Source of the DNA: Paludibacter sp.
GTDB lineage: Bacteria > Bacteroidota > Bacteroidia > Bacteroidales > Paludibacteraceae
Length of the DNA: 47,481 nt
NCBI GenBank assembly: GCA_017882285.1
Contig: JADGPS010000015.1
Location: forward strand, 1-47,481
Direction: 5' to 3'
In this document: piece after piece, positions 16,570-35,362 of the stretch
How positions within the stretch are numbered: position 1 is the first letter of the stretch
Layout: every line of letters begins with the position of its first letter
Made by a program: the position numbers and the translations under genes
Notes under the pieces: model-generated
The model's database searches: none
Seen by the model: the letters and a program-made list of their open reading frames with translations, nothing else
What the model was told of the DNA's origin: nothing

Positions 16570-16636
16570 AAACCTTTTGCCTTAAGTGCCTTAGGCGTTA
16601 TTTACTTCCTTTGGTCGTGATATTTGCTTTGCGATA

Positions 16637-17338
16637 TTAAAATTGATTTACAATCGCCACTGTATTACACACCACCACACCGGCAGTTTCGGTCCTTAAC
16701 CGACTATTGCCCAACGAAACCGGAACAAAACCAAGTGAAATTGCTTTCTGAACTTCTTCTTTGCTGAAATCGCCTTCGGGTCCAATCAATATAAGTATAT
16801 CCGACGATTTCTTCATTTCATTTTGAAGTAGTTTTTTGTCTTCTTCGTAACAATGCGCGATAAACTTCTGACTTGCGTGATGTTTCTTCATTAATTCATC
16901 AAACATGCAAAGCGGATTCAGCTTGGGAAAGTAAGCTTTCACAGATTGTTTGGATGCCGAAATAATTATTTTCTCCAAACGTTCTTCTTTTACGTTCTTC
17001 CGTTCGGAAAAACGACTAATGATAGGTGTAATTTCATCAATGCCAATTTCAGTGGCTTTTTCGATAAACCACTCTATTCGTTCTATATTTTTGGTAGGTG
17101 CAATGGCAATATGCAGTTTGTAATCTCGTTTACCAAACCCGGTTTGTGTTTCAATAATTTCAAAATCACAATGTTTCGGGTGCGGATTAGTGATTTGAGC
17201 TTTGTAATAGCCTCCGGCTCCATCTACCACGACAATTTCGTCACCGATCTGCAAACGCAAAACTTTGACTGCATGTTGCGATTCTTCTTCAGGAAGAACG
17301 TTGCCGGAAGCCAGATTTGGAACGTAAAATAAAGCCAT
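16637..17338 (-). CDS. rsmE: 16S rRNA (uracil-1498-N3)-methyltransferase
   Basis: SPOUT-class methyltransferase of 233 residues that methylates U1498 of 16S rRNA in the 30S subunit. Visible features: N-terminal PUA-like part (ESQHAVKVLRLQIGDEIVVVDGAGG), then KNIERIEWFIEKATEIGIDEITPIISRFSERK, and the knotted SAM-binding end with LIGPEGDFSKEEV and SLGNSRLRTETAGVVV. It follows folD on the same strand 97 bases downstream and is probably the last gene of the ffh-folD-rsmE run. A family A repeat ends directly against its start codon and supplies an AGGGG stretch at about Shine-Dalgarno distance. Confidence 0.94.
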   Translation of the reverse strand: MALFYVPNLASGNVLPEEESQHAVKVLRLQIGDEIVVVDGAGGYYKAQITNPHPKHCDFEIIETQTGFGKRDYKLHIAIAPTKNIERIEWFIEKATEIGIDEITPIISRFSERKNVKEERLEKIIISASKQSVKAYFPKLNPLCMFDELMKKHHASQKFIAHCYEEDKKLLQNEMKKSSDILILIGPEGDFSKEEVQKAISLGFVPVSLGNSRLRTETAGVVVCNTVAIVNQF

Positions 17339-17438
17339 GACCCCTAACCCCTAAAGGGGAAATAAGTTAGTATTAACTATAAAAAATCTTAAATCAAAGA
17401 CGAAAGTATTTAAATCCCCCTTTAGGGGTTAGGGGTCA
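17339..17438. repeat. family A inverted pair (REPIN-like) between folD and rsmE
   Basis: Two copies of the family A repeat face each other: GACCCCTAACCCCTAAAGGG-type at 17339-17361 and its reverse complement at 17414-17438, with a 52-base spacer. Each copy is itself partly palindromic (CCCCTAAAGGGG). The pair fills the whole gap from the rsmE start codon into the folD stop codon (TGA, 17436-17438). Confidence 0.85.
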
Positions 17439-23387: not shown

Positions 23388-24434
23388 TTTGAATATCTTC
23401 AGTTCATTCAGTTTTTGCTGATATTTTTTTGCATTTGCTTGATGTTCAGCCCAGTTGGAAGCAAACTTGTGCTCTCCGTTAAGCGTTTCCGAAGCACACA
23501 TATAAATATAATTGTGATGAGCGTAATTTAATACAGCATCAATTCCGCTTTCTGTTGCAACACGAATTGGTCCGGGTGGTAAGCCGTGATTCCGATAGGT
23601 GTTATACGGCGAAATAAACAGAATCTGCTTAATTCCAATGCGTTTCAGACTGAAATCGCCCACAGCAAATTTCAACGTTGGATCAGCCTGAAGCGGCATA
23701 CCTTTTTTCAAGCGGTTTATGTACAATCCGGCTACTTTCGGGCGATCGGTTTTATTATTCGTTTCTTCCTCCACAATCGACGCCAATGTGCTTACTTCAG
23801 CCGGCGTGAGGGGAATGGCAGCAGCTTTTGCTTTGCGATCGTCTGTCCAGAATTTGGTATATTCCCTGTTCATTCGCTCGAAGAGTGCTTTGGCATTCGT
23901 GTTCCAAAAAACCTCATACGTATTCGGGATGAAAAGCGAAATGGAAGTTGCCGGATTCAAGTGGTAGGTTGCTAAGAAAGCCGTATCGTTGAGCAATTTC
24001 AGGATGCTCGTTGAATCAGCCATTAATTCCGAACCCAGCCGTGCAGCAAGTTGCTGCTTGGTGCGCATGTTGTTGAACGTGAGTCGAACCGGAGTTTGTC
24101 GTCCGCTTCGTAAAATCCGGACCAATTGAAAGTTATTCATGCCTCTTTTGAGTTCATACCTTCCGGAGCGGATTTTCTCATCATAATGAAGGATGCCGGC
24201 AACCTGTTTAAAAGAGAATACTGTGAGTACATTCGCATCCTTTTTAAGTAAGCGGGTCACATCGTTGAACGTACTGCTATCGGGTATACACAGAAAGGCT
24301 TTCTCCTCTGATTTAGGGAAAATATTAGGGGCAAACAGGATATAGGCAAAATACAGAAAAACCGCTACTACGCCGTAGCCAATCCATTTACTGATTTTAG
24401 TAGTTTGCTTTTTTTGTTTCATTTTAGTTGTCAT
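23385..24434 (-). CDS. mltG: endolytic peptidoglycan transglycosylase MltG (YceG-like)
   Basis: 349 residues with one N-terminal membrane anchor (about residues 17-38, WIGYGVVAVFLYFAYILF) and a periplasmic YceG-like domain. It cleaves nascent glycan strands and probably ends their elongation. The catalytic motif ASIVEEETNNKTDRPKVAGLY holds the Glu; LQADPTLKFAV, YNTYRNHGLPPGPI and the late AHHNYIYMCAS also match the family. The ATG at 24434 or the next at 24422 could start it. It lies near murB and the PBP gene but on a separate transcript; -7 motif at 24469-24476. Confidence 0.93.
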   Translation of the reverse strand: MTTKMKQKKQTTKISKWIGYGVVAVFLYFAYILFAPNIFPKSEEKAFLCIPDSSTFNDVTRLLKKDANVLTVFSFKQVAGILHYDEKIRSGRYELKRGMNNFQLVRILRSGRQTPVRLTFNNMRTKQQLAARLGSELMADSTSILKLLNDTAFLATYHLNPATSISLFIPNTYEVFWNTNAKALFERMNREYTKFWTDDRKAKAAAIPLTPAEVSTLASIVEEETNNKTDRPKVAGLYINRLKKGMPLQADPTLKFAVGDFSLKRIGIKQILFISPYNTYRNHGLPPGPIRVATESGIDAVLNYAHHNYIYMCASETLNGEHKFASNWAEHQANAKKYQQKLNELKIFK

Positions 24435-24468
24435 AGTTCCGGTATATTGTTAGGTTCAATTGATGCCA

Positions 24469-24476
24469 CAAAAATA
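24469..24476 (-). promoter_or_regulatory. TAnnTTTG -7 motif for mltG
   Basis: The minus strand reads TATTTTTG, 34 bases upstream of the mltG ATG. Confidence 0.45.
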
Positions 24477-24583
24477 CGGATTTGTTTTGAGATAAATAAA
24501 AAGTAATCAAAAATCAGCATGTTTAATTTCATTTTTCATTTCTAACTGACAGATTGTCAACTAATAAAATGGTAAATGGTAAA

Positions 24584-24603
24584 CCAGCCTGCCGGCTGGC
24601 AGG
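24584..24603. repeat. GC-rich palindrome CCTGCC/GGCAGG, copy 1
   Basis: Overlapping inverted repeats CCAGCC/GGCTGG and CCTGCC/GGCAGG in AT-rich DNA upstream of the tRNA. A related palindrome stands at 37198-37216, so this is probably a third dispersed repeat family. Confidence 0.5.
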
Positions 24604-24656
24604 TGGATAAACGATCAATTTCGAACGATCGGTTTTGATAATCAAAAACTCTTTTC

Positions 24657-24664
24657 TATCTTTG
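24657..24664 (+). promoter_or_regulatory. TAnnTTTG -7 motif for tRNA-Ser
   Basis: TATCTTTG, 21 bases before the tRNA 5' end, placing the start of transcription in the short precursor leader. Confidence 0.65.
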
Positions 24665-24685
24665 CACCCGCAAAAGCGAAGTTTT

Positions 24686-24775
24686 GGAAGTTTGGGTGAG
24701 TGGCTGAAACCACCAGTTTGCTAAACTGACGTACGGGCAACCGTACCGCGAGTTCGAATCTCGCAGCTTCCGCCA
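24686..24775 (+). tRNA. tRNA-Ser(GCT)
   Basis: 90 bases including an encoded CCA end (24773-24775). Acceptor stem GGAAGTT pairs with AGCTTCC (one G-T pair), discriminator G. The anticodon loop TTGCTAA puts GCT at 24720-24722. The long variable arm (ACGTACGGGCAACCGTACC region) and the GTTCGAATC T loop fit tRNA-Ser. It reads AGC and AGU codons. Confidence 0.95.
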
Positions 24776-24777
24776 TA

Positions 24778-24813
24778 AACGCCGGATACTGAAAAGTGTC
24801 CGGCGTTTTTTTT
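24778..24813 (+). terminator. intrinsic terminator of tRNA-Ser
   Basis: An 11-base stem, AACGCCGGATA (24778-24788) with TGTCCGGCGTT (24797-24807), 8-base loop, then a run of eight T (24806-24813). It directly follows the CCA end and is directly followed by the first family B repeat. Confidence 0.9.
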
Positions 24814-25063
24814 GGGACGACGGAGTTCCGACTCCTTTTGGGACGCCGGAATTCCGATTCCGGCTTTCTCATGGTCGGATTCGGAAATCCGACCTCTCGG
24901 TTTATTCGGGACGACGGAGTTCCAACTCCGTCACTTTCTTATGTCGGAATCGGAATTATTCCCTTCGGTCATGACCGTTGGTTCCGACGTCCCGGGGAAA
25001 ATCCGACGTCCCGGATACCTCCGTCAATATTCTTATGGTCGGAGTCGGAACTCCGACCTCCCG
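24814..25063. repeat. family B palindromic repeat array, about three units
   Basis: Tandem imperfect units of 60-90 bases. Each has a left arm like CGGGACGACGGAGTTCCGAC, a middle CACTTTCTTATG or CAATATTCTTATG, and a right arm like GTCGGAACTCCGACGTCCCG. Arms are palindromic on their own and complementary to each other. Units run about 24814-24900, 24908-24999 and 25001-25063. The last right arm overlaps the RAYT reading frame. Open frames in this stretch are repeat-derived and not genes. Confidence 0.85.
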
Positions 25064-25770
25064 AATAATTTCGTTCCTTTCCATTCCCACCAGTTTTCTA
25101 CCAATCCGGCTGAAACGGGATTTTCGAGCGTATAATTGATGGCATTATGAAGGTGCAGCGTGTCGCGTATGGTAGTATCAAAGCTTTCCGATTGCCAGAT
25201 TGTTCCTTTTGTGTTTTCGAGTATGTTCAGTTGGTTGGATGTGTATCGTTTGACCGATTGCATGATGTCCTGCAACCACACAGGATGGCCGTTTTCGACT
25301 TTTTCAAATAACCTTACTACCCAATGAACATGATTCGGCATGACACAAATTGCATAGTTTTCAATGCGTTTTCCTTCCCAGTAACAAAGGGCATTTAGTA
25401 CTGCCTGTGTGTTTTGGTCTTTCGATAAATCGACACTGAACTTCGTTTGAAGATGGAGCAAATCGTCAAATGCTTTCATGTATTTTTTGCGAACCCTGAC
25501 CTGCCCCCCAACCCCCTAAAGGGGGAGTTAAAACGGGACGACGGAACCAACGGTCACGACGAAAGGAAGTAAATTCAGACCTCCCGATTCATCTCGCAAA
25601 CCGCTTTTTTATTCCCCCTTCAGGGGGTTAGGGGGCAGTTTTTTGGTCGGAGTATAACTTTCTAAAGCCTTGGGTGGTACAGCATCTTTTATACACCAGG
25701 TTACGAAATACGCCTGACCCGATTGCTGAAAATGAGGGAGATGCTTACGATAAAATTCTTTCTTTTCCAT
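25033..25770 (-). pseudogene. REP-associated tyrosine transposase (RAYT, Y1/IS200-like), disrupted
   Basis: Two parts in the same frame. The N-terminal part (25770-25612, 53 codons: MEKKEFYRKHLPHFQQSGQA, then YFVTWCIKDAVPPKALESYT) runs into a stop at 25609-25611. The C-terminal part is open from 25515 and begins in RKKYMKAFDDLLHLQTK; it has the HUH-type motif VMPNHVHWVV, SVKRYTSNQLN, GTIWQSESFDTTIRD and the tyrosine region INYTLENPVSAGLV. The two in-frame stops both lie in family A repeats that flank a degenerate family B unit, so a 130-140 base repeat cassette has replaced the linker, probably some 30 residues. The frame ends inside a family B arm (GRSEFRLRP). RAYTs are single-strand transposases thought to mobilise REP sequences. 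As it stands it would not make a full-length protein; a truncated C-terminal product from the ATG at 25479 (148 residues, keeping the HUH and Tyr motifs) is possible. Confidence 0.85.
25502..25638. repeat. family A inverted pair with a family B unit inside, inserted in the RAYT gene
   Basis: Left A copy at 25502-25530 (CCCCCAACCCCCTAAAGGGG), right inverted copy at 25609-25638 (CCCCCTTCAGGGGGTTAGGG), and a degenerate B unit between them (25534-25586, CGGGACGACGGA ... CAGACCTCCCG). It resembles a REPIN carrying a second repeat. Confidence 0.8.
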
Positions 25771-26297
25771 AACAGATTGATTTAGTTTGTTCTTTTTTTA
25801 TGCGAAGATAAATATTTTTTACTGATTCGGGATGACGGAGCTCCGATTGGGACGACGGAGTTCCGACTCCGTCACTTTCTTTTGTCGGAATCGGAATTCC
25901 AACCTCCCGGGAAAAATTCCGACGTCCCGGACAACTCCGTCAATATTTTTTTGGTCAGAGTCGGAACTCTGACCTCCCGGTTATTTGGGATGACGGAATT
26001 CCAAACGGGACGACAGAGTTCCAACTCTGTCACTTTCTTATGTCGGATTCGGAAATCCGACGTCCCGTGACCATCTCCTCACTTTATTTAACTTGTTTTA
26101 TAACTTTTTTTGTGCTTTTAATTGTGGTTTATAAAAACTTTCTTATCTTTATACAATAACTATCAACAAATTTTAACATTATTGGGCGTTTTCTGTGTAT
26201 TTAAAGCCAATTTTTATACAGAAAGACTCCGTTCTATCTCCATTTAAAACGAGAATAAAGGAAAATATCAAAAATAACTAACTAAAAAATTCACAAC
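25771..26297. other. 527-base region between the RAYT gene and the T9SS gene
   Basis: Holds the second family B array (25828-26067) and then about 230 bases of AT-rich leader of the secreted-protein gene. A weak -7-like TATCTTTA lies near 26144. No gene is seen. Confidence 0.6.
25828..26067. repeat. family B palindromic repeat array, about three units
   Basis: Units at about 25828-25911, 25914-25980 and 25987-26067, with the same arms and the CACTTTCTTATG-like middle as the array at 24814. Two units carry an extra left half-arm (GGGATGACGGAGCTCCGATT). The array lies upstream of the T9SS gene. Confidence 0.85.
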
Positions 26298-29200
26298 ATG
26301 AAAAAAATTACTTTTATTAAAACAATGCTTCTCGCTATTTTGATTGCGACTGCAAGTGGAAGTACTTTTGCACAAATTACTTCTGCTGCTGATGGAAATT
26401 GGTCTAACCCTGCTACTTGGACTGGTGGCGTTGTTCCTACATCAACGAATGACGTTAGTATTACACACTGCATAACAGTTTCAGCAGCGACAACAGTTGA
26501 ATGCAATAATTTGATAGTTACTAATACCAATCAAAGAGTAATATTAGCAGGTGCAAATTCCATTTTAAATATTTATGGAACGCTGAATGCTTCAGTGGCA
26601 CCAACAGTTGAAACAATAATTGATTGCACATTAGATGCAACAGCTAAGGTTGTATTTAAAAGAACAACAAATGGTCCAATATTTGGAGCAACATGGGCAC
26701 CATCTGGTACGGGACTTAGATTTGAAGTTAATTTACCCTCTGATATAACTGGAACAGCTTCTACCTCTGTAAAGGCACGAGAAATTACTATTACTTCAGG
26801 TACTTTTGATCTTGCTACTAATGAGTTACGTCCAGACAATGGAGCAAATGCTGGAATATTAACTATACAGGATGCTGCGGTTTTAAAATGTTTTCGTTTA
26901 TCGCGAATTGGTACATCCAACACTTCGTTTGGCACTATGACAATGAATGGAACAGCAAAATTTCAACCAAACTCTTCTACAGCAAGCTCAAAAGATTATC
27001 TTCCAGTAGTGTCAGGTGGTTTTCCAGTTTATATTTTTAGTTCAAGCTCAACTATAGAGTATGTAGGTAGTAGTTCAGGAACAATCTCTGTTATTCCTTA
27101 CCAAAACCTTGCCGTAACGTTGAATGCATCCACAAGTTCCAGAAGTTTTGGTGCTGCTAATACTATTGCAGGAAACTTAACAATTGGAACAGCAACTGTA
27201 ACAAACAGTGCAATAGGCACTACAGTTGGTGGAAATATTACACTCAACAACGATGGAGTGCTAGCTTCAGGTACGGGCAGTTCAACCATTAATGCAAATA
27301 CAGGCGCAAATATTTTAACAATTAACAATGGGGGTGTTCTGCAGATAGTAAACAGAAATTCCTCAGCCACTCCGCCGGCAGCAGGCACAACCACGCCGTT
27401 CTCAACACAATACCCAGGTTTTGAAACAATTACACTTAATACAGGTTCAACCGTTGAATACAGGGTTCCCGGCGCTACAGCTATGGGAACTCAGGATGTA
27501 CAAACAAGCTATGGTGCTTTGCCATTAAATTATCAAAACTTAACGGTAAGCATGACTTCCTCAGTATTAAACAATAATGCTACTCAATATATTCCGGAAG
27601 GTGTTTCAGTTGCAGGAAAATTAAAAATAACTACTTCAACAGCAGCCTTTGCTTGTACTCAAGATGTAATTTTTAATAATACAAATCCTTTGACAGTTGG
27701 TTCACTTGAAATTTCAAGAACCGGTGCCAGTTCTACTGCTGTACAAAATGTAAAACTTGCAGGTCAAACGTACAATATAACAGGTGCTACAGCACTTCAG
27801 AATAGTGGACCAATATTTCAATCGAGTTCTACAATTTTAAATTTCAACCAAGCAGTAACCACATCTGGAACTCTGACTAATCAAGGAATTCTGAGATTTA
27901 ATAATTTTCAACCTACAATTAATTTTAACCAAAATTTGACAGATGGAGCATCAGCTACTACATTTAGCCCGACTGGCACTGAGGTTCCTATTATCAATTT
28001 CAATAATGGAACTTCGGGAACACCAATGACTACAACAGCAGCCAATCTAAAAGGAGCTGTAACTGTGAATGGTTATCGTACGGTTTCGGCAAACGGTTTC
28101 CGTACAAGCAATTCTACAACCGCTGCCTATTCAATGAACATTGCAGGCACTCTTGATCTTGGTGCATATACATCAGTAGCAACAAATACCGGTGGTGGTA
28201 CGAATACATTGAATGGAACAGGTACTATTAAATTTACAGGCTCATACGCAACCCAGATATCAGGATATTCTACAAATAATTTTCAGGGAACAGGTATTCT
28301 TGATTTCGCAGGTGCGTCATTACAAACTATTCCAGCGGGTACTTATGCTAACGTAATTGTTGAAAATGCAGGTGGAGTAACTCTTGGTGGAAATGCATCT
28401 CTTACAGGTGCTTTAACGCTAACCAACGGAACACTTGCTACCGGAGCTAACACATTAACACTGAATGGTACGACATCGGGTACAGGATTAATTAATACAG
28501 GAGGTACTGGAACACTTGCTTTTGGCGGTACAGCAGTACAAACACTTGCAAGTTCTAACCTTACAAGCGGCGCAGTATACAACCTGATCGTAAATGCCGG
28601 TTCTAAACTTACAAGTTCCGGAACAATTGCTGCGACTAACTTCACAATCAACAGTGATGTAACAAATGGCACAGGAACACTATTGGATGGTGGATTGCTT
28701 ACTGCAACAACATCAAATGTAAATCAGTACCTGAGTTCAGCCCGTAATTGGTATATCTCATCGCCTATGAGCAATGCCAATGCACCAACCGGATTTACTT
28801 ATTATAAATATGATGAAACAGGTAGCAATATAGGTTATGTAGCTCCGGCTACAGATTATTGGGTAAGTGTTACAACAGGAAGTCCTTTAAATAAAGGAGT
28901 AGGATACATAGCTTTACCCGGTTCGCCAGGAAGTACACTGATATTTACGACACAACCCGGAGGCACATTAAATACCGGAAATGTGGATATAACACTTACC
29001 AGATCGGGAGCAATCAAAACCGGTTTTAATCTGATTGGCAATCCATATCCTGCTCACTTAACATGGACACAAACATTTGTCGACCATAATTCAGCACTTA
29101 TTGAACCAACTATCTGGTATCGCACGAATGCAGGGACTGTTAATAACAGTGGTCTATGGTCGTTTAAAACAATTAATGCCAGTACAGGTGAAGCTTCTCC

Positions 29201-30023
29201 GCTGGGCACTACCGCCATTATTCCGCCAATGCAGGCATTCTGGGTAAGAGCGGTTACCGCAGGAACAACTACTTTGATATTGAATAGTGATTTGACACTT
29301 TCACATCAAGCATCCAATCCATTAAAAGCACCAGCTGTTAAAAACTCAGACCGTCAACGTCTTCGTTTGCAAGTAAACAACGGAACTTCAACCGATGAAA
29401 CCTTGATTTATTTCGATGCCAATGCTTCAAACGGTTACGACCGCTACGATTCACCGAAATTTGAAGATGCAACTACGGTTACGCAAATTTATACTACGGC
29501 CGGAACAGAAAAATTAGTTATTAATGGAATGAACAGCATCCCACTCGACACCGAAATCGGTCTGGGATTTGTTCCGGGCAGTGCAACTTCATTCAGTATC
29601 AAAGCCAACGAAATAAGCAACCTGCCATCGGATTTAAAAGTGATTTTGAAGGACAATGTAACGCTGGCTGAAACCGACCTTACAAATGGAGTAAACACTT
29701 ACGAATTCAGTCCTGCAACAACTACTACCGACCGTTTCAGTGTCATTTTCCGTTCGGCAGGAGCCGTAACCGGAATTCCAACGGCAGGTAACGATCAGAA
29801 CCTGTTGGTGTACCGCAATGCAAATAATCAAATTGCAGTTCAGATCAAAGGACAACTAAACGATTCCTATTCGTTGGATGTTTATAATTCGGTGGGACAA
29901 AGACTGGCAAGCAAACAAGCTACTACAGGAATTACAATTATGGATGCCCCACAATCGGGTGTATATTTTGTGACCATTAAAGGAAATGGAAACAACACGA
30001 CTAAAAAAGTAGTTATCAATTAA
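26298..30023 (+). CDS. large secreted protein with T9SS C-terminal sorting domain
   Basis: 1241 residues. A Sec signal peptide ends at about residue 25 (ASGSTFAQ). The body is rich in Thr, Ser, Gly, Asn and Ala with repeated short beta-type stretches (NLTI, TLTLNGT, GNITLNN, VIVENAGG), which suggests a beta-helix or beta-sandwich repeat fold. After about residue 810 comes a non-repetitive part (YLSSARNWYISSPMSNANAP, GFNLIGNPYPAHLTW). The last 75 residues form a T9SS type A sorting domain (SLDVYNSVGQRLASKQ, GVYFVTIKGNGNNTTKKVVIN), which directs export across the outer membrane and surface attachment or release. No catalytic motif is recognised; surface adhesin or matrix protein is a guess. Family B arrays lie on both sides, and a 59-residue ORF follows 35 bases downstream. 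Confidence 0.88.
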   Translation: MKKITFIKTMLLAILIATASGSTFAQITSAADGNWSNPATWTGGVVPTSTNDVSITHCITVSAATTVECNNLIVTNTNQRVILAGANSILNIYGTLNASVAPTVETIIDCTLDATAKVVFKRTTNGPIFGATWAPSGTGLRFEVNLPSDITGTASTSVKAREITITSGTFDLATNELRPDNGANAGILTIQDAAVLKCFRLSRIGTSNTSFGTMTMNGTAKFQPNSSTASSKDYLPVVSGGFPVYIFSSSSTIEYVGSSSGTISVIPYQNLAVTLNASTSSRSFGAANTIAGNLTIGTATVTNSAIGTTVGGNITLNNDGVLASGTGSSTINANTGANILTINNGGVLQIVNRNSSATPPAAGTTTPFSTQYPGFETITLNTGSTVEYRVPGATAMGTQDVQTSYGALPLNYQNLTVSMTSSVLNNNATQYIPEGVSVAGKLKITTSTAAFACTQDVIFNNTNPLTVGSLEISRTGASSTAVQNVKLAGQTYNITGATALQNSGPIFQSSSTILNFNQAVTTSGTLTNQGILRFNNFQPTINFNQNLTDGASATTFSPTGTEVPIINFNNGTSGTPMTTTAANLKGAVTVNGYRTVSANGFRTSNSTTAAYSMNIAGTLDLGAYTSVATNTGGGTNTLNGTGTIKFTGSYATQISGYSTNNFQGTGILDFAGASLQTIPAGTYANVIVENAGGVTLGGNASLTGALTLTNGTLATGANTLTLNGTTSGTGLINTGGTGTLAFGGTAVQTLASSNLTSGAVYNLIVNAGSKLTSSGTIAATNFTINSDVTNGTGTLLDGGLLTATTSNVNQYLSSARNWYISSPMSNANAPTGFTYYKYDETGSNIGYVAPATDYWVSVTTGSPLNKGVGYIALPGSPGSTLIFTTQPGGTLNTGNVDITLTRSGAIKTGFNLIGNPYPAHLTWTQTFVDHNSALIEPTIWYRTNAGTVNNSGLWSFKTINASTGEASPLGTTAIIPPMQAFWVRAVTAGTTTLILNSDLTLSHQASNPLKAPAVKNSDRQRLRLQVNNGTSTDETLIYFDANASNGYDRYDSPKFEDATTVTQIYTTAGTEKLVINGMNSIPLDTEIGLGFVPGSATSFSIKANEISNLPSDLKVILKDNVTLAETDLTNGVNTYEFSPATTTTDRFSVIFRSAGAVTGIPTAGNDQNLLVYRNANNQIAVQIKGQLNDSYSLDVYNSVGQRLASKQATTGITIMDAPQSGVYFVTIKGNGNNTTKKVVIN

Positions 30024-30058
30024 CTAATTTGTAAAACAACTAAACAAAAATAAAAGTC

Positions 30059-30238
30059 ATGCATACACTTGAAAATAAAACAGCAAAACGTTCCTATACA
30101 GTTCCAAAAGTTGAACGAATTAAACTTGATAACGAAATATCATTGGTACTTGCATCGGATGGACCGGTAGGTCCGGATGAATCAAACAATTTAAATGCAC
30201 CGGAGTATTTCAACAACGATCCGTTTAAGATGGCGTAG
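30059..30238 (+). CDS. small hypothetical protein, 59 residues
   Basis: A short open frame from the ATG at 30059 to TAG, 35 bases after the T9SS gene on the same strand, so probably cotranscribed. It reads MHTLENKTAKRSYTVPKVER, then a segment IKLDNEISLVLASDGPVGPD, and ends APEYFNNDPFKMA. No signal peptide and no membrane segment; the first third is basic and the rest acidic with Pro and Gly. I can give it no function. A sequence this ordered, with a terminator 34 bases downstream (30272-30300), is unlikely to be chance. Possible roles are a peptide product or an accessory peptide for the secreted neighbour; both are guesses. Its stop codon touches a family A repeat. Confidence 0.6.
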   Translation: MHTLENKTAKRSYTVPKVERIKLDNEISLVLASDGPVGPDESNNLNAPEYFNNDPFKMA

Positions 30239-30239
30239 A

Positions 30240-30269
30240 GGCCCCCTAACCCCCTAAAGGGGGAATAAA
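30240..30269. repeat. single family A repeat
   Basis: CCCCCTAACCCCCTAAAGGG followed by GGAATAAA, directly after the stop codon of the 59-residue ORF. No inverted partner nearby. Confidence 0.8.
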
Positions 30270-30271
30270 AG

Positions 30272-30300
30272 AAAATCCCTGAGAAATCGGGGATTTTTTT
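30272..30300 (+). terminator. intrinsic terminator after the T9SS unit
   Basis: AAAATCCC (30272-30279) pairs with GGGATTTT (30290-30297), 10-base loop, and the T run continues to 30300. Confidence 0.75.
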
Positions 30301-30323
30301 GTTCTGGATGATGGAGTAAAGTT

Positions 30324-30516
30324 CGGGACGACAGAGTTCCGACTTCGTCACTTTCTTTTGTCGGAGTCGGAACTCCGACGTCCCGGTTACTTCCGCCAAT
30401 ATTCCTTTGTCGGAATCGGAATTCCGACGTTCCGGGTGTCTCTGTCAATATTCGGGATGACGGAGTTCCAACTCCGTCAATATTCTCGTGGTCGGAGTCG
30501 GAACTCCGACGTCCCG
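30324..30516. repeat. family B palindromic repeat array, two to three units
   Basis: Units at about 30324-30385 and 30450-30516 with a partial unit between. The clearest unit reads CGGGACGACAGAGTTCCGAC, then CACTTTCTTTTG, then a right arm ending CCGACGTCCCG. Confidence 0.85.
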
Positions 30517-30590
30517 TCGAGTGGTTTTTCTTTTTGTGTTAAACATTAAAAAAACGACTTAATTAGATGCTATACAATATAATAAACACA

Positions 30591-30598
30591 TATATTTG
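30591..30598 (+). promoter_or_regulatory. TAnnTTTG -7 motif for the 7-PAS kinase
   Basis: TATATTTG, 144 bases upstream of the ATG at 30743. Confidence 0.45.
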
Positions 30599-30742
30599 TA
30601 AAAAATTTTCAATTATATGGTTACAACTATCCAATTTGACACTCGATTAGGTTATAAGCTTTATTGTTTTCAATTAGAAACTATTGGCTAAGCAATAGAA
30701 ATTTTATTCCCATTTTCCCATTTTAATATCAAATTAGATTTC

Positions 30743-33700
30743 ATGAACAATTCAAGCAAACAATCAAAGACTACAAACCTGCTCCAAAAAGCGGAAACGC
30801 TTCTGAAAATAAATTCATCAGAAACCGGTTCGCCTCTTTCCGAAATAGAAACACTGAAACTCGTACACGAACTGGAGGTACACCAGATTGAACTGGAATT
30901 GATAAATGAAGAACTTATGCTGGCAAGTTCCGCTGCACAGAATGCTACCGAAAAATACACAGAATTATTCGATTTTGCTCCATTGGATTATTTTACACTT
31001 TCCAAAGAGGGAAAAATCATTGAGCTAAACCTCAGCGGAGCGCAACTGCTTAGCAAAGTACGTACGCACCTAAGAGACAGCCTGTTTGGTTCTTTTGTTT
31101 CCGACGATACAAAACCAATCTTCAATCTTTTTTTAGAAAAAGCATTTAGTAGCAAAGTCAAAGAAACCTGTGAGGTGATCCTGTCAGTTAATGACAACTT
31201 ACCAATGTATGTTCAACTTACCGGCATTGCTACCAAAAATGGAGAACAATGCCTTGTAACCGTAATTGAAATCATCGAGCGTAAGCTGTCCGAAATCGAA
31301 CTCCGCGAGAAAGAAGTTCAGTATCAGAATCTTGCTAACTCCGGTTTAGCACTTATATGGGCTGCAGACACCAATAAATCATGTAATTATTTTAACGAAC
31401 CTTGGTTGAAGTTTACAGGGCGTACGCTTGATCAAGAACTGGGAAACGGATGGGCGGAAGGAGTTCACCCTGATGATTTGGACCGCTGTCTCGAAACTTA
31501 TGCGACTGCTTTTGATAAACGCGAAGAATTTAACATGGAATACAGGTTGCGTCATATAAGCGGTGAATATAGGTGGATATGGGATATGGGCACTCCAAAT
31601 TACAACAGCAGCGGAGAATTCATTGGCTACATTGGGAATTGCCTCGACATCACCGAGCGCAAACAGACGGAATTTGCACACAATGAAAGTGAAAAACGAT
31701 TCCAATTATTATTTAATAATGCACCGCTTGGTTACCAATCACTCGATATCAATGGTAATTTTCTTGAAGTAAATCAGCAGTGGTTGGATACACTTGGCTA
31801 TAAGCGTGAAGAAGTGATAGGAAAATGGTTTGGCGATTTTCTTACGCCAATGTATCAAGATGGTTTTCGCAAGCGTTTCCCTATTTTCAAAGCACAAGGT
31901 CATATTCACAGCGAATTTGAAATGCTGCACAAAAATGGTTCCATTTTATTTATCGCTTTCGAAGGTAGAATCGGAAAAGATTTGGAAGGAAATTTCAAGC
32001 AAACTCATTGCATTTTGCAGGATATTACCGAGAGCAAACGGGCGAATGAAGCATTAATAAAAAGCCATGAAGATTTTATGGATTTATTTGATAATGCTCC
32101 AATTGGTTACCACGAAATTGATGCCGAGGGTCGTATTGTCAGAATGAATCAGACGGAGTTGAATATGCTGGGCTATACTTTCGGTGAGTTAGTTGGAAAG
32201 CACTTCTGGTCAATAATTACCGAAGAAAAAGTGTCACGCAAAGCTATAGAAGCAAAACTTTCGGGAGAGTATGTTCCACTCGATTTTTTCGAACGGGAAT
32301 TTCGAAAAAAGGATGGAACTACGTTGTCGGTTCTTCTTAAAGGCAAGATATTTAAGGATAAAGATGGTCGCATTACCGGAATTAGAACCACCGTACAGGA
32401 TATAACCGAACGAAAAAAGGCTGAATCGGTATTGCTGGAGAGCGAAAAGGAATATCGTACCCTGTTGGATATGTCGCCGGTGGCAAAATGTATTCTTCGC
32501 GATTGGGCATTGATATATGTTAATCACTCGGCTATCAAATTATTCGGAGCAAAGTCATCGAAAGATCTTGTAAATAAACCCATCCTCGAATTGATTCATC
32601 CCGACTTTCATAAACTTACACATGAAAATGCGAAACTGTTAGCCAAAAAGGGTTTCGTACCAAAACAGGAGCAGCGTTTTGTACGAATCGACGGTAATGT
32701 TTTGGAAGTTGAAACCCAGTCGAAATCAATTATCTTCAATGGAAAACAAGCAACTTTGGTTGATATAAGTGATATAACCGAGCGTAAACAGTCAGAAGAA
32801 AAAATCATTAAACTTAGCAGAGTCAATCTGGTTTTAAGTAATGTAAATCAATCAATTGTTCATATAAGAGATAAACAGGAACTTTTCAACCAGGTTTGCA
32901 AAATTGCTATTGAAGATGGTAAACTTCGAATGGCATGGATTGGAATAATTAATCCTCAAACAAATAAAGTAGATGTAGTTGCTTCGTATGGAATTGTAAA
33001 CGGATACCTGGACTCTGTAGATATTGATTTGAATTATCCTGTCAGGAGTAACGGTCCAACAGGAAAATCAATTAATACTGCTCAACATTATTATTCCAAT
33101 AGTATTAAAACAGATGAAGCTATGTTACCCTGGCGTGAAAATGCCGTAAGTCGGGGTTATAATTCTGCCATTTCATTACCATTATTTTTAGCAGGAAAGG
33201 TAATTGGCAATTTTACACTTTATTCCGAAGAGGAAAATTATTTTAATCCGGAGGAAATAGAACTGCTTGATAAATTAGCCATGAATATTTCCTTTACAAT
33301 GGATTACCTGGAAAATGAATCTGAACGTAAAAATGCAGAAGATGCCTTACGGGAAAGCAAATCGAAATTGGATGCCGCCCTGGCAAGTACCACCGATGCT
33401 ATATTTATAACCGATGCCGAAGGTAATTATATTGAATACAATGATGCTTTTGTAAAATACCTACGATTTAGTAGTAAAGATGAACTTCTTGCGAATTTTA
33501 ATGATTTCTCGGATATTATTCAGGTCAATTATTCAAATGGAGAAATAGCCCCTCCAGAAATGTGGGCTGTACCAAGGGCTTTAAGAGGTGAAACTGCCAC
33601 AAATGTTGAATATAAACTCCTGCGAAAGGATACAGGTGAAAGTTGGGTTGGGAGTTACAGTTTCAGCCCGATGCGCGACGACAAAGGGGAAATTGTTGGT

Positions 33701-34885
33701 TCAGTGATTGTAGCAAGGGATGTAACGGAGTTAAAACAAGCAGAAAATGACTTGCGCGAAAGTGAACAAAAACTAAGCACTCTTTTCGCCTCCATGACCG
33801 AAATGGTTGCCATGCACGAATTGGTGTTTAATGAAAAGGGCGAAGCAGTAAATTATCGTATAACTGATTGTAACGATGCATTTTGCCGAAATATTGGAAT
33901 TAGAAAGGAAAATATAATTGGGAGACTGGCTAATGAGGTTTATCAAACCGAAAAAGCACCATTTCTGGAAACATACACTCGGGTAGCTATTACTGGCAAA
34001 TCGTTTGAACACAATATCTACTATCCGCCGATGGACAAACACTTTTTAATTTCGGCGGTTTCGCCCGGTAAAAATATGTTTTCAACCATCACCAACGATA
34101 TTACAGTAATTCAAAAAGCGCATGAAGAAATAGACCAAAAAAACAAGGAATTGGAGAATTATATTTATGTGGCTTCGCACGATTTGCGGTCGCCGCTGGT
34201 TAACATTCAAGGTTTTAGTCAGCGATTGCAAAAACAAACGGAAGAAATTAAGCACGTTTTGACTGCCAATGAACCGGATAATGAAACGAAGGACAGTTTA
34301 GCCAAAATTACCAATGAAACGTTGCCCAAAACGCTCAACTTTATTTTGACGAATGTAAAAAAAATGGACACGCTTATTAACGGGCTTTTGCAGGTATCCC
34401 GAACGGGTCGAATTACAATGGTGATTACAAAAATTGATATGAACCATTTAATCAACACGATACTGTCGCATTACAGTTTTCAAATCACAGAAATGAAGGC
34501 CGAAGTAAGTATCACAGATTTACCCGATTGTTATGGCGATGAAAATCAGCTAAACCAACTTTTTTCGAATATTATTGGCAATGCGCTCAAGTACAGAGAC
34601 AAAAACCGACCGTTGGAACTGAAAATTGCTGCTAAAACACACTACAACAAGGTTATTTACAGCATTTCCGATACAGGAATTGGTATTCATCAGCGTGATA
34701 TTGAAAAAATCTGGAATGTGTTTTACCGGGTCGATTCAACAGTTAGCGAAGCAGGAGATGGTATCGGGTTGAGTTTAGTGAAACGAATTGCCGATAAGCA
34801 CAAAGGCAAAATCTGGGTCGAATCGGAAGAAGGAAAAGGAAGCACTTTTTATGTCGAATTACAAAAAAATGAGTTTGTGGAATAA
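30743..34885 (+). CDS. cytoplasmic multi-PAS/GAF sensor histidine kinase
   Basis: 1380 residues, no membrane segment. Approximate order: PAS1 70-185, PAS2 192-310 (with YFNEPWLKFTGR, a PAC-rich type), PAS3 317-435, PAS4 442-560, PAS5 569-685, GAF 691-860, PAS6 872-1000, PAS7 1008-1125, HisKA with NYIYVASHDLRSPLVN (phosphoacceptor His1146), and HATPase_c with NQLFSNIIGNALKY, DTGIGI and GDGIGLSLVKRI. DITERK joints mark most PAS boundaries. It should autophosphorylate in response to cytosolic cues; ligands are unknown. It is of the HisKA/HPK1 type, unlike the two HisKA_3 kinases downstream, so its partner is more likely the Rcp1-like receiver at 35363. The gene that follows is 477 bases away. 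Confidence 0.92.
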   Translation: MNNSSKQSKTTNLLQKAETLLKINSSETGSPLSEIETLKLVHELEVHQIELELINEELMLASSAAQNATEKYTELFDFAPLDYFTLSKEGKIIELNLSGAQLLSKVRTHLRDSLFGSFVSDDTKPIFNLFLEKAFSSKVKETCEVILSVNDNLPMYVQLTGIATKNGEQCLVTVIEIIERKLSEIELREKEVQYQNLANSGLALIWAADTNKSCNYFNEPWLKFTGRTLDQELGNGWAEGVHPDDLDRCLETYATAFDKREEFNMEYRLRHISGEYRWIWDMGTPNYNSSGEFIGYIGNCLDITERKQTEFAHNESEKRFQLLFNNAPLGYQSLDINGNFLEVNQQWLDTLGYKREEVIGKWFGDFLTPMYQDGFRKRFPIFKAQGHIHSEFEMLHKNGSILFIAFEGRIGKDLEGNFKQTHCILQDITESKRANEALIKSHEDFMDLFDNAPIGYHEIDAEGRIVRMNQTELNMLGYTFGELVGKHFWSIITEEKVSRKAIEAKLSGEYVPLDFFEREFRKKDGTTLSVLLKGKIFKDKDGRITGIRTTVQDITERKKAESVLLESEKEYRTLLDMSPVAKCILRDWALIYVNHSAIKLFGAKSSKDLVNKPILELIHPDFHKLTHENAKLLAKKGFVPKQEQRFVRIDGNVLEVETQSKSIIFNGKQATLVDISDITERKQSEEKIIKLSRVNLVLSNVNQSIVHIRDKQELFNQVCKIAIEDGKLRMAWIGIINPQTNKVDVVASYGIVNGYLDSVDIDLNYPVRSNGPTGKSINTAQHYYSNSIKTDEAMLPWRENAVSRGYNSAISLPLFLAGKVIGNFTLYSEEENYFNPEEIELLDKLAMNISFTMDYLENESERKNAEDALRESKSKLDAALASTTDAIFITDAEGNYIEYNDAFVKYLRFSSKDELLANFNDFSDIIQVNYSNGEIAPPEMWAVPRALRGETATNVEYKLLRKDTGESWVGSYSFSPMRDDKGEIVGSVIVARDVTELKQAENDLRESEQKLSTLFASMTEMVAMHELVFNEKGEAVNYRITDCNDAFCRNIGIRKENIIGRLANEVYQTEKAPFLETYTRVAITGKSFEHNIYYPPMDKHFLISAVSPGKNMFSTITNDITVIQKAHEEIDQKNKELENYIYVASHDLRSPLVNIQGFSQRLQKQTEEIKHVLTANEPDNETKDSLAKITNETLPKTLNFILTNVKKMDTLINGLLQVSRTGRITMVITKIDMNHLINTILSHYSFQITEMKAEVSITDLPDCYGDENQLNQLFSNIIGNALKYRDKNRPLELKIAAKTHYNKVIYSISDTGIGIHQRDIEKIWNVFYRVDSTVSEAGDGIGLSLVKRIADKHKGKIWVESEEGKGSTFYVELQKNEFVE

Positions 34886-34890
34886 TGAAT

Positions 34891-34976
34891 AGTCGGTAGT
34901 TTTTAGTTTTTAGTTTTTAGTTGGTAGTTGGTAGTCGGTAGTTGGTAGTCGGTAGTTGGTAGTCGGTAGTAAGTAG
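34891..34976. repeat. heptamer tandem repeat
   Basis: About a dozen imperfect copies of a 7-base unit (GTAGTCG, GTAGTTG, TTTAGTT) directly after the kinase stop codon. A shorter version with TAGTTCA units follows pdxH at about 8237-8264. Confidence 0.8.
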
Positions 34977-35000
34977 TTTGTCTTTTCCAAAATTTCTTCT

Positions 35001-35008: not shown

Positions 35009-35175
35009 AAAAATTTGATGAAAAATACAAGATAGATGGATCATTCATTTGCATTGATTGATCCTGAAACAAAGAGGTTATTTAATTAATAAACAATAGA
35101 CATTATATAAGTTGAAATCCTGATAATTTCAAATATAGTAATAGTTAGAATAATGTTATGATAAATTTTAGTTCT

Positions 35176-35285
35176 GACCCCCAAACCCCCAAATGGGGGC
35201 TTAATAGTGGTTCTAAGAGAAATATATCATTAAAGAAGATATTAGATACTTCGTCTTAAAGCCCCCATTTGGGGGTTTGGGGGTC
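35176..35285. repeat. family A inverted pair, CCCAAATGGG variant
   Basis: Left copy 35176-35204 (GACCCCCAAACCCCCAAATG) and right inverted copy 35256-35285 (CCCCCATTTGGGGGTTTGGG), with a 51-base spacer. The arms are almost fully complementary. The sequence differs from the TAA type but keeps the plan. Confidence 0.85.
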
Positions 35286-35362
35286 AAAAAATGAATAACC
35301 TACATAAACTCTAATGTATTAAACCGAACAGAAGAATTTGGTTGGACGCAATTAAAACAAAA

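Follow-up and report, generated by a model that had tools for sequence, protein, structure and literature searches.

Known REP systems and the position of the locus

The systems closest to the element described here are those in which a REP-associated tyrosine transposase (RAYT) is encoded among repetitive extragenic palindromes (REPs), short hairpins with a 5′ foot that serves as guide or tag, and of these REPtrons the one with the closest solved fold is TnpAREP of Escherichia coli (Quentin subclass 2.2; structure 4er8). The subject of this work is a broken RAYT gene and the repeat arrays around it, at 24814-26066 of a stretch of 47,481 nucleotides from Paludibacter sp. (assembly GCA_017882285.1, contig JADGPS010000015.1, positions 1 to 47,481), the whole of which is called the window. 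We consider this locus to be, in good likelihood, a dead REPtron of a lineage of Bacteroidales RAYTs with a changed guide tag; enzyme and target appear to have changed together, the hairpins being tagged with GGGA or GGGT in place of the usual GTAG. Genomes, contigs and loci are denoted by G, C and L (G000 being the window's own genome and C109 the window).

With E. coli TnpAREP the lineage shares the HUH motif (histidine, hydrophobic residue, histidine) and the catalytic tyrosine, the Y...NP motif, W94, Q95 (38/49) and R104, as well as inverted pairs of REP hairpins beside the gene, and it differs in its guide (GGGW rather than GTAG), in the changes of H101 and A102 to T and of I to T directly after the tyrosine (Y+1), in an extra helical hairpin modelled before the HUH domain, and in REPs that are low in copy number and local. 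Subclass 2.4, from Cyanobacteria and Bacteroidetes, is characterised by YIxNNP, a GT[AG]G foot and inserts generally found between HUH and Y (PMC6006769); it also has Bacteroidota members and in-frame REPs within the RAYT gene, whereas in the present lineage the motif is YTxNNP (T at Y+1 in 46/48), the foot GGGW, and the inserts lie before HUH (17/17). Subclass 2.6, mostly from Bacteroidetes, has YIH[QN]NP and weak structures, and class 3 a Y....Q motif and a CnGA foot (PMC6006769), REP-like structures lacking the GT[AG]G foot being therefore already on record; the lineage is set apart from both by YTxNNP (YTLENP in the window), clear stems of 7-9 bp, and GGGW. The TIRYTs (TIRtrons, subclass 2.1) possess long terminal inverted repeats (TIRs), some with GGGGWSAS, and a C-terminal helix-turn-helix (HTH) domain (PMC3733652). 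This sequence is close to the GGGWS foot carried by 147/199 REPs of the lineage, so that the GGGWS foot itself has precedent, although the lineage has tagged REP hairpins and no long TIRs; regarding the HTH, no further Pfam domain was found in the homologue from G002 (L060), and in the L217 protein the chain stops about 25 residues past the catalytic tyrosine. In the REP doublets forming hairpins (REPINs) of Pseudomonas the repeat unit is an inverted doublet present in hundreds of copies (PMC3116915), and the same doublet is found here in tens of copies and with a GGGA foot. Finally, the CGTC REPs, for which occurrences in Bacteroidetes are also on record, are short palindromes tagged with CGTC and lack a dedicated transposase (PMC3733652), while the short tagged palindromes considered here have a GGGA tag and a RAYT.

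Set against the accessible parts of these descriptions, the locus is a RAYT by its protein, and by its repeat stands apart from the GT[AG]G, CGTC, class 3 CnGA, YIxNNP and YIH[QN]NP types. Within the literature that could be searched, which left most subscription papers outside, we found neither a GGGW foot combined with an HTH-less RAYT and REPs before HUH, nor any paper on Bacteroidales REPs or a GGGT foot.

The broken RAYT and its repeat arrays

The locus is composed of the following features, in which the B site map derives from a degenerate pattern with up to 5 mismatches (5 + 7 + 5 sites in three clusters, 12 of them flanking the RAYT, as is expected of a REPtron):

24686-24775, plus strand: tRNA-Ser (GCT); the left B array starts 38 nt beyond it
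24814-25062: left B array, 3′ of the RAYT, with REPs at 24814(+), 24840(+), 24874(-), 24908(+) and 25038(-)
25033-25515, minus strand: RAYT C-terminal part, an open frame with NHVH (HUH), WQSESFDTTIR and the catalytic tyrosine in YTLENP
25503-25636: family A inverted pair in the RAYT N-terminal linker (arms 25503-25532 and 25607-25636), which introduces stop codons
25535-25588: degenerate family-B-like stretch between both A arms, CGGGACGACGGA...GACCTCCCG, with a CCAACGGTC-like motif at its centre
25636-25770, minus strand: RAYT N-terminal part (MEKKEFYRKHLPHFQQ...ALESYTPTKKL), in the same frame as the C-terminal part
25829-26066: right B array, 5′ of the RAYT, with REPs at 25829(+), 25849(+), 25884(-), 25954(-), 25987(+), 26007(+) and 26042(-)
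25849-25908: complete B REPIN of 60 nt, GGGACGACGGAGTTCCGACTCCGTC followed by a 10-nt spacer and the inverted copy, tags facing outwards
30325-30515: second B cluster, 4.3 kb from the first, with REPs at 30325(+), 30360(-), 30409(-), 30454(+) and 30491(-)

The REP at 25038(-) overlaps the 3′ end of the RAYT frame, and the family-B-like call at 25535-25588 was made by eye and from an inverted repeat with 24956-24994, the B patterns giving no match there. The original prediction of a RAYT remnant within REP-like arrays is thus confirmed, its extent agreeing exactly with the cluster at the RAYT, where family B flanks a broken minus-strand gene on both sides; to this is added the further B cluster at 30.3-30.5 kb.

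The C-terminal part contains MPNHVHWVV, WQSESFDTTIR and YTLENPVSAGLV, the N-terminal part has MEKKEFYRKHLPHFQQSGQAYFVTWCIKDAVPPKALESY.., and stop codons intervene. In Pfam, the C-terminal part scores 22 bits for Y1_Tnp (cut-off 23). The features of class 2 TnpAY1 (HUH, W, Y...NP) are present in the fragment as NHVH, WQ and YTLENP, and likewise in its kin. The C-terminal part shares 79% identity with its counterpart in G221 (L217), and the N-terminal part aligns with the N-termini of 9 same-genus RAYTs (tblastn). The comparison with L217 over 130 codons gives 0.13 nonsynonymous (dN) and 1.12 synonymous (dS) substitutions per site, from which it follows that constraint acted on the C-terminal domain during most of its past, and that it probably died recently. 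Its own genome holds one match only to this RAYT, and not the several near-identical copies of a whole element that are proper to IS200/IS605 insertion sequences. Plasmid carriage of a close RAYT was not found, the two plasmid records matched showing 31% and 35% identity, and a reading as a defence system received no match from PADLOC. The same genome also contains four other Y1 transposase-like genes, L004 (C11), L001 (C142), L002 (C61) and L003 (C10), of which that on C11 is open and subclass 2.6-like, with YIHQNP.

In the family B unit, GGGACGACGGAGTTCCGACTCCGTC, a GGGA(C) foot precedes a stem of 8 bp with a loop of 4 nt, the REP measuring 25 nt. The window holds five inverted (+-) doublets with 9-12 nt spacers and their GGGA feet outwards, which is the architecture of a REPIN, as had been proposed. 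Family B was also considered as a group of CGTC REPs, a possibility ruled out because the 5′ foot is GGGA and there is no CGTC. A search of the window's own genome with up to 3 mismatches, of the kind the original prediction called for, returned 23 sites on four contigs (14 on C109, 6 on C121, 2 on C6 and 1 on C127) and none with the reversed control, and G221 holds 58 sites, with related units across several of its contigs.

Two isolated doublets lie off the RAYT contig. On C6, a B REPIN is found in frame inside menD (L010:687-2423), where the protein is about 17 residues longer than in G212. A menD match was obtained in 26 genomes (own included), and among the 14 same-genus genes compared, partial or distant matches being omitted, a REPIN-like insert occurs in G199 only (C93; L126, L294) and is absent from 13, which provides the difference between strains at a given locus that had been sought. 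Exact ends or a target-site duplication were looked for at the menD empty site, and none could be defined, the flanks being too diverged. On C127 (L028:1400-1625) the B REPIN is located just 3′ of a gene that by eye resembles a restriction-methylase, and it separates two similar copies of the C-terminal segment of that gene (DFGLSEDEYASLMIE / EFGLSEVEYENILI).

A Bacteroidales lineage with a GGG foot

In an order-level sample of 198 genomes (own included), 30 have a homologue of the window RAYT (E<=0.001). The two closest from other families are those of G002 (59%, open) and G176 (53%, broken), each flanked by its own doublets, whose stems differ (GGGA-CAAGCGACA.. and GGGTG-CAGCGGAT.., respectively); the REP of G002 has 11 matches and that of G176 13, each in its own genome, with none in the four other genomes tested and a control of 0. 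The G176 gene is broken a second time near its first strand (L061:980-1130), by some 100-130 nt that do not resemble the REPs. Within the genus, a RAYT with 55% identity or more is present in 10 of 40 genomes (own included), all ten with GGG-tagged hairpins nearby, and 5 further ones show weak matches only, to other Y1 genes. Scanning GTDB genomes yielded 56 loci, of which 51 (L209-L259, 39-100% identity to the query) were taken as the lineage, with records from Paludibacter, Mariniphaga, Sunxiuqinia, Draconibacterium, Mangrovibacterium, Marinilabilia and Tangfeifania, among others. The window RAYT belongs to this Bacteroidales lineage, in support of the proposed Bacteroidota host for such a system, and open RAYT relatives, each with its own repeats, are present in sister genomes.

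In the tree, the window RAYT, L217, L209, L210 and L212 form a clade (support 97/97), each of the five having nearby B-type stems of the form GAC[AG]GA.TTCC[GA]A.TC.GTC. One genome harbours two RAYTs, L209 and L211, with two different REPs. The pairing at 100/100 of L220, from another family, with L243, from Paludibacter, together with their common AAGCGACA stem, suggests horizontal transfer.

The foot was examined by comparing hairpins that lie in the RAYT or no more than 450 nt from it (near) with those more than 1200 nt away (far), after exclusion of hairpins with a GC content below 0.35 and of those at 450-1200 nt, a GGG tag being defined as a GGG that stops 0-3 nt short of the stem. Over the 51 loci, 200/256 near hairpins are tagged against 15/96 far ones, and 49/51 loci carry tagged hairpins, the two without them being L227 and L255. 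The GT[AG]G foot of REPtrons is seen in 8/256 near and 3/96 far hairpins, CCC stands at the tag position in 5/256 near hairpins, and in an open count of 3-mers GGG was the commonest. As GGG had been noticed beforehand on ten of the loci, in genomes of the order and genus samples, the 41 new loci were counted apart (163/208 near, 11/80 far; 39/41 loci). The difference is also present when GC is at least 0.5 (150/182 against 11/36) and when a single flanking hairpin is taken per locus (37/45 against 5/22). The foot reads GGGW in 188/199 REPs, and in the 147 with GGGWS the following base is C or G.

Outside the lineage, GTAG is the foot of 4/4 hairpins at L260 and of 6/6 at L261, two RAYTs farther removed (34% and 32% identity), and other Bacteroidota RAYTs, L067 and L070, have GTA-type feet. 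At L067, dense alternating hairpins with GTAAC and GTATC feet (ACGAACC.., ACAATCC..) lie up to about 180 nt from the RAYT frame (1471-2064), the foot being other than GTAG. The loci L065, L066 and L072 contain RAYTs of another type (WMPE/WMPD, R101, YI) with GGGTT- or GGGTG-like feet.

Guide residues, fold and REPs inside the gene

The guide contacts named for E. coli are W94, Q95, E100, H101 and R104 (PMC6006769). Leaving out the 2 or 3 of 51 rows that are gapped in the guide columns, the lineage keeps W94 in 49/49 and R104 in 47/48, in addition to Q95 as given above, and has D for E100 in 46/48, as do the other RAYTs compared. Threonine occupies position 101 (45/48), the neighbouring 102 (48/48) and Y+1 (46/48), and is found at these positions in 0/13 other RAYTs and likewise not in E. 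coli; since the lineage is one clade, these changes count as one evolutionary event and do not constitute a statistical series.

The AlphaFold model of the L217 RAYT (predicted local distance difference test, pLDDT, 89) shows, ahead of the HUH domain, a helical hairpin formed by residues 37-55 and 60-87, and its best PDB match in Foldseek is 4er8 (E 6e-7, probability 1.00), the structure of TnpAREP with a REP hairpin, although the superposition of the whole chains is loose (TMq 0.45, root mean square deviation 8.7). A RAYT profile also reaches 4er8 (E 0.0025), while phmmer with one RAYT against the PDB gave no match at E 0.01. According to the model, the L217 protein, 79% identical to the window fragment, is predicted to have the TnpAREP fold.

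At 17/51 loci the RAYT gene itself contains REPs with a GGG tag, before the HUH codons in every case; the frame is open and the REP translated in 12/17 (for instance SDSPDFKKRGSETAPP in L235), and the gene is broken in 5/17. A first count had given 18 loci, 13 intact, from which L212 was dropped after its translation was read, its hairpin being a palindrome of ordinary coding sequence, and L227 appears on the list of in-gene hairpins solely because that list had no GC filter. In the model of L235, residues 60-65 and 69-77 have a pLDDT below 50 and form a loop between helices 33-55 and 82-110. The interruption of the window RAYT by the family A pair is situated in this same place.

Does the RAYT move family B?

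If the reading of a REPtron is accepted, the working enzyme, whose gene remains open in sister genomes, would bind the single-stranded, folded REP hairpin with its 5′ foot GGGW, often GGGWS, would cut and rejoin it by the HUH/tyrosine chemistry known from E. coli TnpAREP, and would thereby copy REPIN doublets, mostly beside its own gene and sometimes elsewhere. The copy in the window would have died on the landing of a family A element in the linker, where the lineage tolerates REPs, this element having held, or later received, the B-like stretch. Three points here are inferences: the mobilisation of family B by the window's RAYT protein, the role of GGGW as guide, and the killing of the gene by a family A element.

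The link between RAYT and B is drawn from co-divergence and location, and not from presence or absence across genomes. The distances between RAYTs and between REPs are correlated in 46 of the 51 loci, L236, L249, L253, L227 and L255 being left out (Mantel r 0.40, 0/2000 permutations), and in 28/46 the REP of the nearest RAYT is among the five nearest, where 5.1 would be expected; part of this correlation could come from the shared descent of the flanks.

Several observations weigh against this interpretation. (i) At the level of the protein, the C-terminal part matches NCBIfam NF047646 REP_Tyr_transpos (E 2e-19) with 69.8 bits, below the cut-off of 80, which the open G002 homologue passes with 82.6; the base of the lineage is supported in the tree, against five outgroup rows, by only 88/90. 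(ii) At the level of the genus, a simple co-occurrence of B and RAYT was not found, at least one B site being present in 10/30 genomes without this RAYT and in 4/10 with it (p 0.54); two of the former, G199 (28 sites) and G210 (31), have no RAYT match in the genome, and no RAYT was seen in the regions examined around their B sites, 19 in G199 and 16 in G210. (iii) Within genomes, B is sparse and local, 14/23 sites lying at most 5 kb from the RAYT; the cognate matches at the RAYT are 5/6 in the complete chromosome of Draconibacterium orientale and 5/5 in Sunxiuqinia elliptica, and no movement of B was seen. (iv) The menD of G212, 87% identical to that of the own genome, lacks the insert that the partial one of G199, at 73%, possesses, so that loss, transfer or parallel insertion is needed and there is no simple gain along the species tree. 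(v) Lastly, L066 (by eye) and L072 have GGG-like feet with R101, that is, in RAYTs without the residues of the lineage; T101 is consequently not required for the tag and was rejected as its sole cause, and GGG feet may have had more than one origin in Bacteroidota. As for the RAYT-less genomes with B, they could be explained by loss of the RAYT or by gaps that repeats leave in the assemblies (completeness 87% for G210 and 97% for G199), and the presence of the G199-type REP (GGGATGACAGAGTTCCGACTCTGTC) at the RAYT of L209 makes a loss in G199 plausible. The original prediction that the RAYT moves these repeats is supported for B, then, by co-divergence and location, and is in part contradicted, in that B also occurs in a third of the genomes of the genus without this RAYT.

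Two other explanations of the arrays are unlikely in our judgement. According to the first, the B arrays would be tandem or segmental duplicates produced by slippage and recombination at palindromes, with the RAYT there by chance; the low copy number of B, its concentration near the RAYT and the two named isolates with nearly all their cognate REPs at the RAYT locus leave room for such local duplication by ordinary recombination. Against ordinary duplication speak the lone REPINs in menD and beside the restriction-modification-like gene, on other contigs than the RAYT, the related units on several G221 contigs, the tagged hairpins at nearly all lineage RAYTs when few of the far hairpins are tagged, and the REPs that follow the RAYT phylogeny. 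According to the second, which we think has a similarly small chance of being correct, another RAYT or transposase would move B, and the RAYTs of this lineage would be mere hosts of REP insertions, as would fit the genomes that have B without this RAYT, two of them in high copy, and the insertion of REPs into the RAYT genes themselves. Against such a mover, no A or B (up to 4 mismatches) was found within 1.5 kb on each side, or less at contig ends, of the other four Y1 genes of the own genome, the stems follow the phylogeny of this RAYT, and the two RAYTs of a single genome (L209, L211) have two different REPs.

Returning to the REPtron, a wider proposal may be made, tentatively and with doubt slightly outweighing belief: that the guide of the lineage switched from GTAG to GGGW(S) together with protein changes next to the guide (T101, T102 and a threonine at Y+1), and that the lineage targeted its own gene, placing REPINs in frame at the tip of the helical hairpin before HUH. 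In the rule described for the guide, CT is chosen by A3G4, CA by T2G4, and GT and GA with GTAC (PMC8266576); if this rule is applied to the last two bases of the foot, GGTG would lead to CA and GGAC to GT, and the lineage should cut dinucleotides other than CT. If true, this would be a natural retargeting of an HUH transposase. The published automatic search for REPs cognate to RAYTs was keyed to GT[AG]G, and other feet were found by hand only (PMC6006769), so that, with a whole lineage bearing a GGGW foot, REPtrons of Bacteroidota have probably been missed by searches of that type. The lineage offers a natural series, one enzyme family with many stems and related feet, in which guide recognition, the choice of cleavage site and the co-evolution of enzyme and repeat could be measured, and it offers in addition in-frame REPs within the gene of the enzyme itself.

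Family A as a separate element

Family A forms inverted pairs in the window at 17338/17417, 25503/25607 and 35172/35259, with single arms elsewhere. Its own genome contains 131 matches, some arms being counted in two overlapping registers (control 0). The middles of the pairs extracted measure 49-128 nt and are mostly unrelated, one subfamily (ACCCCCAAACCCCCAAATGGGGG) retaining its middle. Inverted pairs of A, among them those at 17338-17438 and 35172-35289, occur throughout the genome, many with the outer ends TGCCCCC...GGGGGCA, and the pair at 17338-17438 occupies the entire gap between two genes, with a start codon on one side and a stop codon on the other.

Family A constitutes an element family of its own, one copy of which simply landed at the RAYT. 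It is found in 37/40 genomes of the genus (own included; 0-460 matches each), among them 27/30 without this RAYT, and the number of matches is independent of the RAYT (medians 21.5 with it and 27.5 without, p 0.95). The explanation put forward originally, in which one RAYT moves both families, is suggested by the interleaving of A and B at the RAYT and at 30.2-30.5 kb, and is highly improbable given this distribution, the variable middles and the lack of a GGGW foot before the stem, for which reasons A as driven by this RAYT was rejected. The subclass 2.6-like RAYT of C11 was also considered as its driver and discarded, there being no A (up to 4 mismatches) in its 3.2-kb locus, though the contig does have an A site 12 kb from there.

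Other features of the window

The right-hand neighbour of the locus is a gene of 1241 amino acids (26298-30023) with a sub-threshold match to a Por-secretion tail. In a search of 24400-30800 against Rfam the tRNA was the sole known RNA. The gene at 30743-34885, for a PAS/GAF histidine kinase, is immediately followed by a 14-nt tandem repeat (TAGTCGGTAGTTGG-like) at 34890-34987. Besides A and B there is a third palindrome, resembling CCAACGGTCATGACCGAAGG, which occurs at 24956-24994 and 25535-25572, forms an enlarged loop within some B REPs and recurs in units of G221 (L189), and a stretch similar to it is located at 16600-16629.

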